From assembly GCF_900163835.1 (NCBI RefSeq), contig NZ_FUKR01000053.1, positions 1 to 64,000 on the forward strand: a stretch of DNA of 64,000 nucleotides. The letters run 5' to 3'. Positions 2,414 to 54,404 of the stretch are shown here, in pieces; positions within the stretch are counted from its first letter, which is position 1; the number at the start of each line of letters is the position of its first letter. The notes under the pieces were generated by a model, which was not told the DNA's origin, searched no databases, and saw nothing but the letters and a program-made list of their open reading frames with translations. The position numbers and the translations under genes are program-made. The DNA is from Mycetocola reblochoni REB411 (GTDB lineage Bacteria; Actinomycetota; Actinomycetes; Actinomycetales; Microbacteriaceae).

Positions 2414-3636
2414 CGCGGCATCTCCAGAACGACCGTCGTCCCCGCCCCGGGGGCGCTGAAGACGCGCGCGCCCCCTCCGGCGTCCGACATGCGCGCGACG
2501 ATGGAGTCGCGGAACCCCAGGCGGGCGGGATCGAGAGCATCGGGGTCGAAACCGCGGCCGGCGTCGGTCACGACCACCCTGACGGTCATCCCGTCGTCGC
2601 TCAGCGTGACCTGCGCGTGCGCCGTGCCCGCGTGCCTGCGCACGTTCTCGAGGCATTCGGTCAGGGCCAGCCGCACGGCGTCCGACTTCGGCGGGGGCAG
2701 CGCGAGCGCCGTGCTGCCGTGCCAGTCGATGTGCAGGCCGTGACCCTCGAAACGTTCGACGAGGTCCTCGAAGTCGCCGCGCTGCGTCCTCCGCTCGCTC
2801 CGGGTGACGAGCGAGTACGAGCCGGAGCGATGCGGCTCCGGCGTCTCGCCCTGGCGCAGCCGGGAGAGGAGCTCGGCGTCGGCTCCGGCCTGTTGACGCA
2901 GCGCACGGTCCTGAACGCCCGCACCACCGTGCGCGAGCATGGACAGCGTCGCCAGGACGGTGTCGTGGAGCAGGCGCGCCTCGCGCAGCCGCTGGGCCTC
3001 GACCTCGCTGGCGAGCCGCTCGAGCCGGTGGCCCTCGCCGATGCCGGCGACCTGGTGCGCCATCGAGACGAAGCTGCGGTGCAGCCAGAGCCCGAACGCG
3101 GCGCACAGGGCCCAGGCGGTCACATAGTGGGCGACGATGAGGGTGCGCAGCGTGTCGTCGACGGTGACGGCGAACACGAGCAGCAGCCCGGCGACGAAGG
3201 CGCCGACCAGACCGATCACCCTGCCCCAGCTGGACACGAGCAGCGGCGCGAGCGAGCCCGCGCCCCAGGACAGCACCATGAGGATGGCGAACGCGCTCGA
3301 GTTGGGCGTCACCGGGCCGGAGGACAGCAGGATCATCACGGCACTCGTCACCGACAGCACGATGACGCCCACCATCGCCAGCGGCCCCCTCCGCACCAGC
3401 AGGAACAGGTGGACCGCCCCGAGCAGCGCCAGCAGCGTCGCCGCGATCGCGGTGTCTGGCAGCCGCATCGGGCTGGGGATCGCCAGGCAGCACAGCGCGG
3501 CGACGACGCCGGACAGGCCGATCGCGAGCGTCGAGCGGGACAGCAGCCGGGACTGCTGCCAGGAGAAGCGGTTCTGCTCCTGCCTGCTCATGCCGTAGCG
3601 CTCGGGGGTGAAGCGCGCGAGCTCGGCGACGATCAT
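2410..3636 (-). CDS. Sensor histidine kinase (NarL-partner type)
   Basis: The 408-residue product has an N-terminal membrane domain of about five or six helices (residues 35-185), a linker, then a phosphotransfer helix with His224 in RLLHDTVLATL. The catalytic domain has an N box (LALTECLENVRRHAG, Asn331) and a G box DAGRGF at 358-363, ending GAGTTVVLEMPR. This is the architecture of kinases that pair with NarL/LuxR-type regulators, matching the regulator downstream. The start was chosen at ATG 3636 because a GGAGG site lies just upstream; the same frame is open much farther 5' but runs antisense through metX. The stop overlaps the next gene (ATGA). A TAGAGT -10 box lies at 3663-3668. The stimulus is unknown. 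Confidence 0.9.
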   Translation of the reverse strand: MIVAELARFTPERYGMSRQEQNRFSWQQSRLLSRSTLAIGLSGVVAALCCLAIPSPMRLPDTAIAATLLALLGAVHLFLLVRRGPLAMVGVIVLSVTSAVMILLSSGPVTPNSSAFAILMVLSWGAGSLAPLLVSSWGRVIGLVGAFVAGLLLVFAVTVDDTLRTLIVAHYVTAWALCAAFGLWLHRSFVSMAHQVAGIGEGHRLERLASEVEAQRLREARLLHDTVLATLSMLAHGGAGVQDRALRQQAGADAELLSRLRQGETPEPHRSGSYSLVTRSERRTQRGDFEDLVERFEGHGLHIDWHGSTALALPPPKSDAVRLALTECLENVRRHAGTAHAQVTLSDDGMTVRVVVTDAGRGFDPDALDPARLGFRDSIVARMSDAGGGARVFSAPGAGTTVVLEMPR

Positions 3637-47683: not shown

Positions 47684-48439
47684 GTGCGTCTTCTGCTTCC
47701 TCCGTCCGAGACGAAGGAGCAGGGGGGCACGGGGCCCGCCGTCGATCTCTCGGCCCTCTACGCTCCGTCCCTGCGGGACGCCCGGCTCCAGGTCATCGAG
47801 CGTCTCGTGGAGCTGTGCCAGGACGAGGGGGAGGCGCGACGGGTCCTCAAGCTCGGCGATCGGCTCCGTGGCGAGGTCGAGGTCGACCGTGTCGTTCTGC
47901 GGTCGCCGACTCGTCGGGCGCTGGAGCGCTACACCGGGGTGCTCTACGACGCGCTCGACGCCGGGTCCCTGAGCGGTCGGGACTGGGCCGCGGCGGGCCG
48001 GCGCATCATCGTCCAGTCGGCGCTGTTCGGACCGGTACGTGCCGATGACGCGATCCCCGCCTACCGTCTGTCCGCGACGACGGGGCGCCCCGTCGGTCCG
48101 TTGAAGCGGCACTGGACGCGGGCGACGGCGGGCGTCTGGGACGAGGAGGAGTTCATCGTGGATGCCCGCTCCGAGTCCTACAGAGCCCTGAGTCCCGTAC
48201 CCGAGCACGTTCCGCATGTGTACGTGCGGGTGCTGTCGGGGAACGGCTCCGGAGCGGCCCTCAACCACTTCAACAAGGCGGCCAAGGGGCGGTTGGCATC
48301 GGCGGTGATCCGCTCGGCAGACGAAGCTTCCTCCGCGCGTGAACTCGTCGACTGGGCGCGCGCGGAGGGGATGTCGTTCGATCTCGACGCTGCGGCGCCG
48401 GGCGAGGTGATCCTCTGGGATCAGCATGGCGCGGCGTGA
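47684..48439 (+). CDS. yaaA: YaaA-family peroxide stress protein
   Basis: YaaA (DUF328/UPF0246) lowers free iron under peroxide stress in E. coli. The 251-residue product has the family start VRLLLPPSETK, the GxxYxxL-like middle VLYDALDAGSLSGRDW, and the block RVLSGNGSGAALNHFNKAAKGRLASAVI, whose NHxNKxxKGR pattern (here NHFNKAAKGR) is a hallmark. The GTG start at 47684 sits at the beginning of conservation. The position after atpC is a recurring arrangement in Microbacteriaceae. Confidence 0.92.
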   Translation: MRLLLPPSETKEQGGTGPAVDLSALYAPSLRDARLQVIERLVELCQDEGEARRVLKLGDRLRGEVEVDRVVLRSPTRRALERYTGVLYDALDAGSLSGRDWAAAGRRIIVQSALFGPVRADDAIPAYRLSATTGRPVGPLKRHWTRATAGVWDEEEFIVDARSESYRALSPVPEHVPHVYVRVLSGNGSGAALNHFNKAAKGRLASAVIRSADEASSARELVDWARAEGMSFDLDAAAPGEVILWDQHGAA

Positions 48440-48507: not shown

Positions 48508-49023
48508 TCAGGGCAGTGAGGGGATGCGCTCGTGCTCCTGGAGGCGCCGAGTCAGCGAACCGCGGTGTCGCTCGGAGCGGGGCAGCACAAGCCCGCCCGC
48601 ACCGAGCACCCGATGGCGGGGTTGCAGGAGTGGCACGGGCACCCGGTCGAGCGCGCTCTCGACGGTGCGTCGGGGCAACCCGACGCGCGTGGCCAGGCGG
48701 CTGACCCCGATTGCGTGCCGCGCCGGCAGCCGGGTGAGGGACTCCCACACCCGCCGCTCCTCCGCGCTGGTGCCCGTCGGCACGGAGACGGGGATGTCGA
48801 GGGGCGCCCCCGGGTCGCGAAGGTAGCGGGCGATCTGCTCCGCCGCGGCGTCGAGCACCATCGGGTGGCCGCCGTCCGCGAGGGGGAGCGTCTCCGGCCA
48901 GGGCGAGTGCTCGTCCCGCAGCGACAGCCCGGCGATGGCCGTCCCGTCCTCGTCGGCGGTGAGGAGCAGGACGCCGAGCGGCGTGGTCATCAGAAGGTGA
49001 TGGCTGTTCTCTGTGCGGATCAT
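48508..49023 (-). CDS. Ogt/MGMT-like protein lacking the alkyl-acceptor cysteine
   Basis: The 171-residue protein has the full two-part plan of O6-alkylguanine-DNA alkyltransferase. An N-terminal domain carries TPLGVLLLTADEDGTAIAG, and the DNA-binding domain runs ERRVWESLTRLPARHAIGVSRLATRVGLPRRTVESAL. The active-site strand reads QPRHRVLGAGG (134-144), so the acceptor Cys of PCHR is Arg136 (codon CGC for TGC). The conserved Tyr of the SYxxLA segment and the Asn of NP are also changed. Repair by methyl transfer is therefore not possible. Alkyltransferase-like proteins with PWHR flag lesions for excision repair; this could be a relative or a decaying Ogt. The message looks leaderless: TAGTGT at 49031-49036 ends seven bases before the ATG. 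Confidence 0.75.
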   Translation of the reverse strand: MIRTENSHHLLMTTPLGVLLLTADEDGTAIAGLSLRDEHSPWPETLPLADGGHPMVLDAAAEQIARYLRDPGAPLDIPVSVPTGTSAEERRVWESLTRLPARHAIGVSRLATRVGLPRRTVESALDRVPVPLLQPRHRVLGAGGLVLPRSERHRGSLTRRLQEHERIPSLP

Positions 49024-49030
49024 GGCCCGG

Positions 49031-49036
49031 ACACTA
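49031..49036 (-). promoter_or_regulatory. -10 box of the Ogt-like gene, leaderless arrangement
   Basis: TAGTGT on the minus strand is seven bases from the ATG at 49023. A divergent TAGCCT box at 49133-49138 is seven bases from the aldo/keto reductase ATG, so both genes appear to give leaderless messages from one 122-base gap. Confidence 0.5.
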
Positions 49037-49145
49037 GGTGAGGGACCGGAGTCCCCGTCGGGGGAATGAGGGGTAATGGGAACCGCCGCGATGGTGTGAC
49101 GGCTGAGGAGGACAGCGGGGCCGTCAACGCAGTAGCCTGGGATTC

Positions 49146-50123
49146 ATGTCTGACATGGAGTACCGCCCGCTCGGGCGTTCCGGTCTCATCGTCTCCGCTG
49201 TCGGCCTCGGATGCAACAACCTGGGCCGGCGCGGCACGCAGAGCCACGACGAAGCCGGCGCGCGAGCCGTCGTCCACGGGGCGCTCGACGCGGGCGTGAC
49301 CCTGTTCGACACCGCCGACGTGTACGGCGTCGAGCCAGGACTGAGCGAGACCCTGCTGGGGGCCGCACTGCGGGGCCGCAGGGACGAGGCCGTCGTCGCG
49401 ACCAAGTTCGGCCACGCCGACATCGATGCCGGGATCCCCAATCACGGTGCGCGCGGCTCGAGACGATACGTCCGCCTCGCCATCGAGCGGTCGCTGCGCC
49501 GCCTCGGTACCGACTGGATCGATCTGTACCAGCTGCACACCCCCGACCCGGTCACCCCGATCGGCGAGACCCTCGCCGCGCTCGACGAGCTCGTCGACGA
49601 GGGGAAGATCCGCTACATCGGGCACTCCAACTTCGCCGGATGGCAGATCGCCGAAGCCGAGCTCACCGCGGCCCTGTCCGGGACCGAGCGTTTCATCAGC
49701 GCGCAGAACGAGTTCAATCTCATCCAGCGCTCGGCCGAGCGGGAGGTGCTTCCCGCCGCCGAGCACTTCGGGATCGGATTCCTGCCGTGGTTCCCGCTGT
49801 ACAACGGTCTGTTCACCGGCAAGTTCAGCCGCACGGGCGGCCCGGAGGACAGCCGGATCATGCGTCAGCGTCCCCACCTGCTCGACTCGGCACCGTGGGA
49901 GGCCATGGACGCCTACGAGCGCTTCTGCACGGAGCGCGGCGTCAGCATGCTCGAGGCGACGTTCGGCTGGCTTCTGACCCGCCCGGCGCTCAGCAGTGTG
50001 ATCGCCGGGGCGACCACGCCGGAGCAGGCGGCCCAGAACGCGGCCGCGTCGCGGTGGCGTCCGGACCCGAGCGAGGCCGCGCACATCGGTGAGATCTTCG
50101 CCGCATCGTCGGGGAGCCGCTAG
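49146..50123 (+). CDS. Aldo/keto reductase
   Basis: The 325-residue NADPH-dependent reductase has the catalytic tetrad Asp55 and Tyr60 (LFDTADVYG), Lys87 (VVATKFGH) and His131 (LYQLHTPD), with the NADPH end block LLTRPALSSVIAGATTPEQ. The order of motifs and the GRSGLIVSAVGLGCNNLG start place it with the YhdN/Tas-like AKR group (AKR11/12 type). The substrate is unknown. The ATG follows a TAGCCT -10 box by seven bases. Confidence 0.92.
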   Translation: MSDMEYRPLGRSGLIVSAVGLGCNNLGRRGTQSHDEAGARAVVHGALDAGVTLFDTADVYGVEPGLSETLLGAALRGRRDEAVVATKFGHADIDAGIPNHGARGSRRYVRLAIERSLRRLGTDWIDLYQLHTPDPVTPIGETLAALDELVDEGKIRYIGHSNFAGWQIAEAELTAALSGTERFISAQNEFNLIQRSAEREVLPAAEHFGIGFLPWFPLYNGLFTGKFSRTGGPEDSRIMRQRPHLLDSAPWEAMDAYERFCTERGVSMLEATFGWLLTRPALSSVIAGATTPEQAAQNAAASRWRPDPSEAAHIGEIFAASSGSR

Positions 50124-51074: not shown

Positions 51075-54000
51075 ATGATCCGAGCAGACGTCCGAACACG
51101 ACCGGCGCGGCACGGCGAGCGCTCCGACCCGTTCTCGGCCCGGCCGGCACAGCCATCCTCGTCCGAGCCGGGAGCTGAGCGGCAGGCGCAGCCCGATCCG
51201 GCACGTGGCGCTGCCAGGTTCCGGGTCCGAAGCATGCTGGTGTCCGCCGCGATCGGACCGGTGATGTTCGCGGTCACTGGCAGCCCGGTGTCCTTGCTGC
51301 TCTCGGTGTTGGCGCCTGCCGGAATGCTCGCCTCGGCCCTCGACCAGCGTGCGCTGGGCCGCGAGCGCCCCCGGCGGGGGCAGCAGCGGCCCCGGGACTC
51401 GCACGGGGACGGTGCGCCGCCGTCCTTACCGCCGAGGGAACGGCGAGCCGATGCGGGGTGGGGGACCGAGTGGGACGGCGTGTGTCGCGCGATTCCCGTC
51501 GGGATGGAGAAGCGGGAACCCATCGAGGTTCATCGCCGGGCACCCCGGGCCGCGAACCACGGGCGGGTTCTCCTGGGCTCGTCGAGTCGGAGCAGGGCGA
51601 CGGCTCGGGGGCAGCGCTCCGTCCTGCTGCCGCTGCCCTCCGTTGTGGCGATCCGCGCACCGCGTGCCGTCGCCGACGGTGTCGCCAGGGCGGTGATCGC
51701 CGGGGCGTTCCGCCTGGTCCATCCCTCGCTGTTGGCGGTCGAGGACGCCGGCGGGTGCACGCGTGGCGTGCGTTCGTATCGGGGACGGCGCGCCGCATCC
51801 GCCGACGGGGTGGTCGTCTCCGTCGTCGAGGCCAGGGCTCTCGGTGCGGGGCCGCCCACGCCCGCGCACGACGGTGCGGAACGGGCGCGGTCGCTCCGTA
51901 TCGTGATCTGTGCGGTCGGTGAGCCGATCCCACCCGGGACCACCCATGTCTTGGAGCTGAGCCGGGGAGGAGAATGGCGCACTCGTGTCGAGGAGACGGT
52001 GCCCGATGGCATACCGGCGGCACTCGGCAGGGACCGGACGCCGGCGTCGTCCCTGCCGGACCGTTCGTGCCGCATCGATCTGGTGTCGGCGGGGGAGCTC
52101 GCCGTGATGGCGAGGGAACTCGGTGAACGGGCGGCGCGCTGGGGTGCGAGCGAGGACGACGCCGATCAGTCGCCGTCGGAGATCGCCGGATCGATGCTCG
52201 ACGGCTCTCCCACCGGTGGGACACCTGGCGAGCACTCTGCGTACGACGGCACGACCCTGGTCGGCTCGGTCGGCAGGGCGGACGGCGCCGCGGTCGAGGT
52301 CGATCTCGTCCGGGACGGCCCACATGCGCTCGTGGTGGGGACCACCGGCTCGGGAAAGAGCGTGCTGATCACGACCTGGCTCCTCGGGATGGCCGTGCGC
52401 CACAGCCCCGATCGGCTCACCTTCGCCGTCGTCGATTTCAAGGGTGGCACCGGCCTCGGTGACCTGGCCGGGCTGCCCCACTGCCGTGGCTTCGTCAGCG
52501 ACCTCAGCGCCACCGACCTGAGCCGGGTGGCCAGAGCTCTTAGCTCCGAGCTCGCGGAGCGCGAAAGACGGTGCGCGCTGGCCGGCGTCCGGGACGTCAC
52601 CGAGCTGGCGTCGGGTGAGCGCCCGGCGCGACTGATCGTCGTCGTCGACGAGTTCGTCGCCGCCGTCGAAGCATCGCCCGTGTTCGAGCGGGTGCTCGGC
52701 GACCTCGCCGCGCGCGGTCGTTCCCTGGGCATCCACGTGATCGTCAGTACACAGAACCTGGGCGGCGCGGTCCGGTCGAGGATCCAGAACAACTGCGCTC
52801 TGCGGATGTGCTTGACGGTCCTCGACGGCGCGGAGTCGCTCGCCGTCGTCGGCGTGCGCGGGGCGGAGAGGCTCGACACCGTGGGCTCGTTCCTGTGCGC
52901 ACGGGGCGGGAGCACGCAGCGTGTCCGCGGGGGAGCCCCCACGATGGCGCAGCGCTCCGAGGCGATGGCACGGGCCGCCCATGTGGGAGCGAGGGCGGCA
53001 TCGGACCCGCTCTGGCTCGACCCGCTTCCGGCACGGGTCACGCATGCGGACCTGGCGCGGCTCGCCGAGAGCGGTGGTGGATCGCACGACGTCGAGCGCC
53101 AGCGGGGGCCAGCGGGCGTCCGTTCCGTGCCGGGGCCGGCACGGTCGGTCCTGGGGATGAGCGAGGAGCACGATGCGCGCAGACGGTCGCTCGCGACGTT
53201 CGATCCGCAGCGGGACGGGACGCTCCTCGTCGTCGGCGTGGCCGGGTCCGGTCGGACCGCTGTCCTACGCCAGCTCGATGACGGGCGGCCGGGCACTGTG
53301 TTCCTTGATGCTGCTCGCACCCCGGAGGAGGCCTGGGACGTGCTCGCCTGGGCCGATCACGCGATCGCTGAGCAGGAGGCGCTCCCTCGCCGGCTCCTCA
53401 TGGATGACGTCGACACCCTGCTCAGTCGCCTCGGCGCGTCCGAGCAGCAGCTGTTCATCGAACGGCTGATCCGGGTGGCCGCGGCCGCTCCGGCGCGCGG
53501 CACGGTCGTCGCCGTGAGCAGTCGTCGGTCCGGAGGACCGCTCGTCGGGCTCGACGCGGTGTCCACCCGGCTCCGGCTCGGCGTGACCGTTGTCGAGCCC
53601 GGACGGGCCGGATCGCACGATGCGGACGGGAGCGGCGAGGGCGATCTGCCCCGGGGCAGGGGCGTCTGGCGCGGTCGTCCAGTTCAGTGCACCGATCCGG
53701 GTGCACCGCCGGCACGACGGCACTGCTTCACGCCGAGCGGGCGGCATGCGGCAGCGGCCCTGGACGGCTGCGAGGGGACGGTCCAGGTGGTGCTCAAGGA
53801 CCCGGACCGCTGGCCGGACCCCGAGCTCGTCGCCGAGATGAGGGCGAGGGGGTGGGCGGTCATCGGCGTCGAGGACGCGCTGAGGGGCCGACGGGCCCAC
53901 GCCGACGTCCTGCTCTGCGACTCGGAGCTACGGAGCGAGTTCCCACTCCTGAACGGTGGGACTGTGCGGCCGCCCTACACGGTGAACCGGTGCCTGTGGG

Positions 54001-54404
54001 TCGTTCCACGCGGCGGCCCCGTGCGGCGGATCGTCGTCTCAGCGGTTGAGCGCGATCGTCTCCGACGCCCGCACCGTGCCGACGACGACCCCGCCGCCGA
54101 GGACATCGAGCCCGAGCTCGCCGCGGACGGTGTCGATGTCGCTCGCGGGGATCGCGCCGGCACCGGCCAAGAGGGTCAGCCCGGCGATCGTCGCGCCGCG
54201 CAGGCTGCCGTCCAGCATCTTCAGCGCGACCGTCGTGCCGTCCGGCGCGCTCATCACCATCACGCCCTCCGCGCCGAGCTTCGCGAAAACGCTCAGCCTG
54301 TCGATGACGACGGTGTTCGCCCGCCCGACCCCGTCGATGGCCCAGCCGTTGCTCATCACGGCGTCGACCAAGATCCCCGCGTTGCGGTAGAGGGCGAACG
54401 GTGA
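51075..54404 (+). CDS. FtsK/SpoIIIE (EccC-like) twin-ATPase membrane protein, probable lost stop
   Basis: The 1109-codon frame has a 55-residue basic start, two membrane helices at about 55-90, a divergent middle, an intact FtsK/SpoIIIE domain, then a second, degenerate one. The first has Walker A GTTGSGKS (422-429), Walker B LIVVVDEFVAAVE and STQNLGG. The second has Walker A as GVAGSGRT (721-728, Lys to Arg) but still LLMDDVDTLL. This layout resembles the EccC motor of type VII secretion. No WXG100 or other Ecc gene is in the window. Homology-like sequence ends near residue 990 (VVPRGGPVRRIVVS). The last 122 codons are antisense to the asparaginase gene and look like read-through. A TGA at 54047-54049 in another frame may be the original stop. 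Confidence 0.85.
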   Translation: MIRADVRTRPARHGERSDPFSARPAQPSSSEPGAERQAQPDPARGAARFRVRSMLVSAAIGPVMFAVTGSPVSLLLSVLAPAGMLASALDQRALGRERPRRGQQRPRDSHGDGAPPSLPPRERRADAGWGTEWDGVCRAIPVGMEKREPIEVHRRAPRAANHGRVLLGSSSRSRATARGQRSVLLPLPSVVAIRAPRAVADGVARAVIAGAFRLVHPSLLAVEDAGGCTRGVRSYRGRRAASADGVVVSVVEARALGAGPPTPAHDGAERARSLRIVICAVGEPIPPGTTHVLELSRGGEWRTRVEETVPDGIPAALGRDRTPASSLPDRSCRIDLVSAGELAVMARELGERAARWGASEDDADQSPSEIAGSMLDGSPTGGTPGEHSAYDGTTLVGSVGRADGAAVEVDLVRDGPHALVVGTTGSGKSVLITTWLLGMAVRHSPDRLTFAVVDFKGGTGLGDLAGLPHCRGFVSDLSATDLSRVARALSSELAERERRCALAGVRDVTELASGERPARLIVVVDEFVAAVEASPVFERVLGDLAARGRSLGIHVIVSTQNLGGAVRSRIQNNCALRMCLTVLDGAESLAVVGVRGAERLDTVGSFLCARGGSTQRVRGGAPTMAQRSEAMARAAHVGARAASDPLWLDPLPARVTHADLARLAESGGGSHDVERQRGPAGVRSVPGPARSVLGMSEEHDARRRSLATFDPQRDGTLLVVGVAGSGRTAVLRQLDDGRPGTVFLDAARTPEEAWDVLAWADHAIAEQEALPRRLLMDDVDTLLSRLGASEQQLFIERLIRVAAAAPARGTVVAVSSRRSGGPLVGLDAVSTRLRLGVTVVEPGRAGSHDADGSGEGDLPRGRGVWRGRPVQCTDPGAPPARRHCFTPSGRHAAAALDGCEGTVQVVLKDPDRWPDPELVAEMRARGWAVIGVEDALRGRRAHADVLLCDSELRSEFPLLNGGTVRPPYTVNRCLWVVPRGGPVRRIVVSAVERDRLRRPHRADDDPAAEDIEPELAADGVDVARGDRAGTGQEGQPGDRRAAQAAVQHLQRDRRAVRRAHHHHALRAELRENAQPVDDDGVRPPDPVDGPAVAHHGVDQDPRVAVEGER

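Follow-up and report, generated by a model that had tools for sequence, protein, structure and literature searches.

The window, i.e. the whole stretch of 64,000 nucleotides that was analysed, lies in contig C20 of a 2.9-Mb genome; named relatives of one of its genes, an aldo/keto reductase (AKR), place it in or near the Microbacteriaceae. The gene considered here occupies positions 48508-49023 on the minus strand. It starts with ATG, is free of internal stops and encodes a protein of 171 residues, which is a homologue of the alkyltransferase Ogt. It is flanked by two conserved neighbours on the plus strand, both assigned by Pfam and by synteny: yaaA of the peroxide stress protein family (47726-48439; PF03883, 91 bits) and the divergently oriented AKR gene (49146-50123; PF00248, 220 bits). 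A -10-like hexamer, TAGTGT (49031-49036, minus strand), precedes the ATG by 7 nt, which is a leaderless spacing. Further along the window, at 51075-54404 (plus strand), there is a long ORF with a GTTGSGKS P-loop, which looks FtsK/EssC-like by eye.

Profile searches differed in how much of the protein they detected. Pfam assigned DNA_binding_1 to residues 89-166 with 34 bits (cut-off 27) and gave no match for the N-terminal domain at E ≤ 1; the NCBIfam model ogt reached 27.1 bits, which is below its cut-off of 46.4. A two-domain family HMM, built with the protein left out, aligned to it over positions 4-161 out of 165 with 71 bits, all within one reading frame. The claim of the original prediction that both Ogt domains are present at normal length therefore holds, although Pfam sees the DNA_binding_1 part alone. 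No significant HMM piece was found in another frame of the gene; as the family HMM aligns end to end in one frame, a compensated frameshift was not seen.

At the position of the acceptor cysteine, residue 136 is an arginine encoded by CGC, one transition away from TGC. It is part of the PRHR motif (residues 135-138, counted from the ORF; 48610-48621, minus strand) within the segment LQPRHRVLG. This exchange of PCHR for PRHR, from which the original prediction started, was confirmed in the ORF and in the family alignment, and so were the proposed changes of the conserved Tyr (V107) and of the Asn of the NP pair (V128-P129). Conservation was assessed with 91 distinct Cys-type rows, excluding Ser rows and rows with fewer than 120 of the 165 columns filled. 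The protein has kept 11 of the 24 columns that are at least 99% conserved, whereas 13 are changed; at 95% conservation, 21 of 40 are kept. The retained residues are P15, G17, G84, W93, the Arg finger R119, H137-R138-V139-L140 and H164-E165. The losses are Gly102→Arg, Tyr107→Val, Gly122→Glu, Gly123→Ser, Asn128→Val and Cys136→Arg. Three of these lie in the recognition-helix/hinge stretch (residues 119-128; 48640-48669, minus strand), to which the Arg finger also belongs. The former active-site loop (residues 147-161; 48541-48585, minus strand) today reads LPRSERHRGSLTRRL, with LPRSERHRG at the place of the TGYSGG...K loop of the Cys-type rows. That the GYSGG loop is replaced, along with glycines such as Gly102, Gly122 and Gly123, had not been mentioned in the original prediction. 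Hydrophobic columns are still hydrophobic in 34 of 42 cases; in the Cys-type rows this number is at least 38.

Compared with the requirements of an Ogt/AGT enzyme, the protein possesses the Arg finger (R119), the motif His (H137) and the activating Glu (E165), and it lacks the acceptor Cys of the PCHR-type motif (Arg136), the base-flipping Tyr and the Asn hinge (V107 and V128). Because the acceptor Cys is an Arg, alkyl groups should no longer be accepted; alkyl transfer is expected to be lost and the protein, judged by its sequence, should be catalytically dead. Normal base flipping in the minor groove would be unlikely due to the Glu in the recognition helix and the lost Tyr, and minor-groove lesion binding appears doubtful.

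The AlphaFold2 model of the protein has a mean pLDDT of 85.2 and a pTM of 0.80. Note that the underlying alignment consisted of the protein and 28 Cys-type orthologues, such that the confidence values partly reflect these homologues. A Foldseek search with the model listed Ogt/MGMT structures first, the best one being M. tuberculosis OGT (4wxc, E 1.9e-9); the alkyltransferase-like protein (ATL) of S. pombe (3gva) followed with E 0.015, in a comparison in which the alignment used favours Ogt. The predicted two-domain AGT fold is thus compatible with the sequence rather than proven by the model, because of the Cys-type rows in the alignment.

In length, domain order and predicted fold, as well as in possessing the Arg finger, HRV and the C-terminal Glu and in sharing the genomic position of the Microbacteriaceae orthologue, the protein resembles Ogt/MGMT enzymes like M. 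tuberculosis OGT (PDB 4bhb/4wxc); unlike these, it lacks the acceptor Cys, the Tyr, the Asn hinge and the GYSGG loop. ATLs are characterised by binding to O6-alkylguanine and by contacts with UvrA/UvrC; some of them carry Ala at the Cys position. According to the 2023 review PMC10779285, most ATLs have Trp at this position; they lack the N-terminal domain and the Asn hinge and conserve both Tyr and Arg finger. PMC7216122 likewise mentions Trp in place of the Cys. Like S. pombe Atl1 and E. coli ATL, the protein has the Arg finger and lacks the acceptor Cys and the Asn hinge (V128). Unlike them, it comprises the N-terminal part (171 residues, HMM positions 4-161 of 165, a part to which Pfam is blind), the Tyr is a Val, and the Cys is replaced by Arg and not by Trp. 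Judged by its active site, the protein is not an Ogt enzyme, nor does it qualify as an ATL when compared with the published features. The original prediction had offered a distinct ATL variant or an Ogt losing its function; the missing Cys agrees with a loss of the chemistry, whereas the full-length N-terminal part and the lost Tyr speak against the ATL variant.

A more specific version of the latter idea is that the protein acts as a two-domain ATL sensor, which would bind O6-alkylguanine via the Arg finger and hand it over to nucleotide excision repair. We consider this improbable. The conserved Arg finger, HRVL and Glu, the absence of the Asn hinge as in ATLs and the Ser form of the positional orthologue, which is kept with low dN/dS in one genus (see below), would fit such a role, but the Tyr is lost, the recognition helix contains a Glu, the loop is replaced, the N-terminal domain is present and the Cys position is occupied by Arg instead of Trp; the better E-value of 4wxc compared to 3gva points in the same direction, though with the above bias of the alignment. 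Moreover, the genome already contains an ATL-type protein. DNA_binding_1 was matched four times in this genome, namely by two PCHR proteins (contigs C43 and C29), by a PWWRVV protein of ATL type (C26) and by the protein studied here. The search for a second, Cys-bearing ogt that had been suggested was thus successful twice, both genes coding for PCHR. With these three proteins encoded elsewhere, the genome could afford a Cys-less form. The ATL-type protein consists of 97 residues (L003; C26, 38011-38208, minus strand); the corresponding motif of E. coli ATL is given as PWHRV in PMC10779285.

The gene order atpD-atpC-yaaA-ogt-AKR, with ogt and AKR diverging, is common to many genera of the Microbacteriaceae, and the gene occupies the ogt slot. 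Among 80 named AKR loci, 28 have an Ogt in this slot (20 GCHR, 7 PCHR, 1 ACHR) and 52 do not, many of the latter belonging to other families or to Microbacterium. No Ogt was found in the named Microbacterium and Labedella AKR loci within flanks of at most 5 kb and loci of up to about 11 kb. In Labedella-type genomes, an ORF is located between yaaA and AKR (L141, about 2522-3241; L157, about 2591-3253; both plus strand), which we take to resemble a Tag-type 3-methyladenine glycosylase. A further set consisted of 110 AKR-adjacent stretches, i.e. the 30 loci of the AKR search, including that of the window, plus 80 more; as AKR matches occur in 196 of 398 genomes, it is a partial sample. These stretches contained 72 Cys-bearing Ogts (44 PCHR and 28 GCHR in the match rows), 5 with Ser, the one with Arg from the window and 2 Ogts that run off the stretch ahead of the motif; the remaining 30 gave no match. 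The latter number is an upper bound for the absence of Ogt, as the stretches reach just about 1.5-1.7 kb past AKR: one of them (L213) ends after 781 bases, and in four genomes of this class (G028, G102, G128, G316) an Ogt match lies 2.6-7.5 kb off on the same contig. Based on position and profile alignment, the gene is the orthologue of the Microbacteriaceae ogt that is divergent to AKR.

A close relative with PRHR was found neither in 199 and 398 genomes of the family nor in 396 genomes of the order (overlapping sets); the search for PRHR in related genomes, which had been proposed, yielded no close relative from the 398 and 396 genomes. The best matches other than the window itself were 34% identical in the family (E 3e-16) and 37% in the order (E 5e-16), with a range of 34-38%. 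The active sites of 53 matched loci (L008-L036, L123-L136, L247-L256) showed 52 Cys, one Ser and no Arg, and a scan of the genome contigs with the protein as query gave no match. It had been foreseen that relatives might carry Cys and that the exchange might be a mutation of a single strain. The orthologues do have mostly Cys; a point mutation in one strain, in contrast, does not explain 13 changed columns out of 24. For the same reason the Arg is no single-base artefact. That sequencing, assembly or the choice of frame produced this gene is hardly credible altogether: the genome is the sole one of its genus in the comparison, which would leave room for an error, but the many concordant in-frame substitutions, the normal codon usage, the conserved gene order on either side and the alignment in a single frame argue against it.

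In the Ogt tree, the branch leading to the protein amounts to 5.5 changes per column, the median of the end branches being 0.14. Note that this tree cannot place the protein reliably, as joins were flagged as possibly false; orthology rests on synteny and the profile alignment. In the AKR tree, the branch of the window has a length of 0.44 compared to a median of 0.088; both branches are long, the Ogt branch by far the longer one. The partner of the window in the AKR tree (G017, SH-aLRT 87) has its yaaA adjoining AKR without an ogt; in the other three genomes of this genus, no AKR match was obtained at E ≤ 1e-80.

In order to distinguish between drift and constraint, codon statistics were computed. 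The GC content at the three codon positions of the gene is 0.78/0.54/0.91, and the mean of 48 ORFs of the window is 0.72/0.50/0.93; these ORFs include the gene itself and were picked for coding signal (at least 150 codons and GC3-GC2 above 0.25). Of the 47 other ORFs, 5 have a lower synonymous bias than the gene. The pattern is weaker in the C-terminal half (0.83/0.57/0.86) than in the N-terminal half (0.73/0.50/0.95). For a simulation of neutral decay, 48 GC-rich orthologues were mutated randomly until 21 of the 40 conserved columns were left. Runs that preserved the frame and also reached the observed GC3-GC2 or more numbered 2, 0, 0 and 1 of 1000 at a neutral (equilibrium) GC content of 0.60, 0.72, 0.80 and 0.88, respectively. 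The open frame alone was retained in 15-55% of the neutral runs, and as many hydrophobic columns of the core as observed were kept in 4-19% (4-24% in a first run with 300 each), which makes both of them weak evidence. Pure neutral drift starting from a normal Ogt is rejected by the simulation; partial relaxation, or decay that set in late, still fits. Many conserved columns changed while the frame and GC3-GC2 stayed, which speaks for coding constraint that acted over a long time in the absence of the Cys. Codon statistics, simulation and the -10 spacing indicate that the gene is probably still expressed. The original prediction had argued against simple decay. Codon statistics and simulation support this view; the open frame is a weak argument, the branch is of great length, and several lineages lack the gene at the equivalent place.

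Taken together, we favour with a probability of about 0.55 that the gene is a fast-evolving, strongly diverged and catalytically dead Ogt orthologue, which shows signs of continuing coding constraint and is probably still translated. In this case, the gene would be transcribed and translated, the protein would retain the AGT fold and may fulfil a non-catalytic role, for which weak or altered DNA binding seems more likely than an ATL-style capture of lesions; the loss of activity would be tolerated owing to the two PCHR Ogts and the PWWR ATL. Several observations stand against this reading. An Ogt branch of 5.5 beside an AKR branch of 0.44 speaks for relaxed constraint, more than half of the columns conserved to at least 99% are gone, the codon pattern of the C-terminal half is weaker, and among the genomes searched there is no homologue close enough to reveal conservation of PRHR.

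The main rival is quite possible, if less probable: a redundant Ogt that lost its function recently and decays under relaxed constraint; stops and frameshifts would not have accumulated so far, and the gene would go on to be lost as in other lineages. The very long branch and the redundancy with the two PCHR Ogts would be expected then, and the equivalent place is devoid of an Ogt match in Microbacterium and Labedella loci, in the partner of the AKR tree and, as an upper bound, in 30 of the 110 shorter stretches. The gene also lacks the PafBC-like upstream element described below, though this holds for several Cys-bearing genera too. On the other hand, neutral simulations rarely reproduced the observed loss of columns with frame and GC3-GC2 kept, a result that would also agree with partial constraint at first and decay setting in late.

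A second Cys-less form of the same gene was found in genus g2. All five species examined have PSHR at the AKR-linked locus (L150 in G001, L162 in G084, L144 in G147, L152 in G198, L159 in G243). These proteins share with the one studied here the position beside AKR, the missing acceptor Cys and the Arg finger; they differ from it in having Ser instead of Arg, in keeping the Tyr and the TG-aromatic loop, and in their low dN/dS. G198 and G243 carry another residue instead of the Asn. Nei-Gojobori dN/dS values were between 0.04 and 0.30 for nine of the ten pairs, dS being saturated in one pair; several dS values are above 1, so the ratios are rough. Four of the five genomes also possess a PCHR Ogt elsewhere, and G001 has further Ogt matches. 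The Ser form of g2 is the better-supported novelty of the two. Searches of the open PMC literature for naturally occurring Cys-to-Ser forms or other ATL replacements gave no such report; in PMC10779285, Ser at the acceptor Cys occurs in a human AGT variant from crystallography.

Hence, Ser and Arg both replace the acceptor Cys of one positional Ogt orthologue within one bacterial family; these are two forms and not a count of events. It is tempting to assume that the AKR-linked ogt turned more than once into a two-domain, Cys-less lesion binder, conserved as the Ser form in a genus and fast-evolving as the Arg form, which would imply non-Trp routes to an ATL-like function; we regard this as speculative and rather unlikely. 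If the Ser and Arg forms did bind O6-alkylguanine without repairing it, one could follow the transition from suicide enzyme to damage marker in closely related organisms with different active sites; if they do not bind, the locus would clearly exemplify a pseudoenzyme of DNA repair.

The original prediction also credited the gene with a promoter of its own, which is compatible with the arrangement TAGTGT-N7-ATG. Of the 69 orthologous genes tested, 58 had a TANNNT element 6-7 nt upstream of an ATG; the chance is about 0.3% per site tried, and several starts were tried per gene. The divergent AKR gene has TANNNT (TAGCCT) 7 nt before its ATG (49133-49148), such that both genes of the pair look leaderless. 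For the Cys-type orthologues, upstream regions were scored for a RecA-NDp/PafBC-like element, using a nonamer consensus that is said to stem from Gamulin et al. 2004. At a fixed distance from the -10 element, at least 5 of 9 positions agreed in 46 of 91 distinct Cys-type upstream regions, compared to about 3.6% of shuffles, which suggests a putative induction of the Cys-type ogt by DNA damage. Upstream of the gene in the window and of the five Ser genes, no such element reached 5 of 9. It is also missing in the Cys-bearing genera g3, g51 and g44 and in most of g74; we therefore do not infer a link between the loss of the Cys and the loss of a DNA-damage promoter. The RecA-NDp/PafBC promoter class is described in PMC6789036, PMC8223512 and PMC11804915. 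The layout seen in Cys-type ogt genes, e.g. in L194, L218 and L161, is a RecA-NDp/PafBC-like element followed by N8-TANNNT with leaderless spacing, and a primer given in PMC5087735 displays the same arrangement of element and -10.
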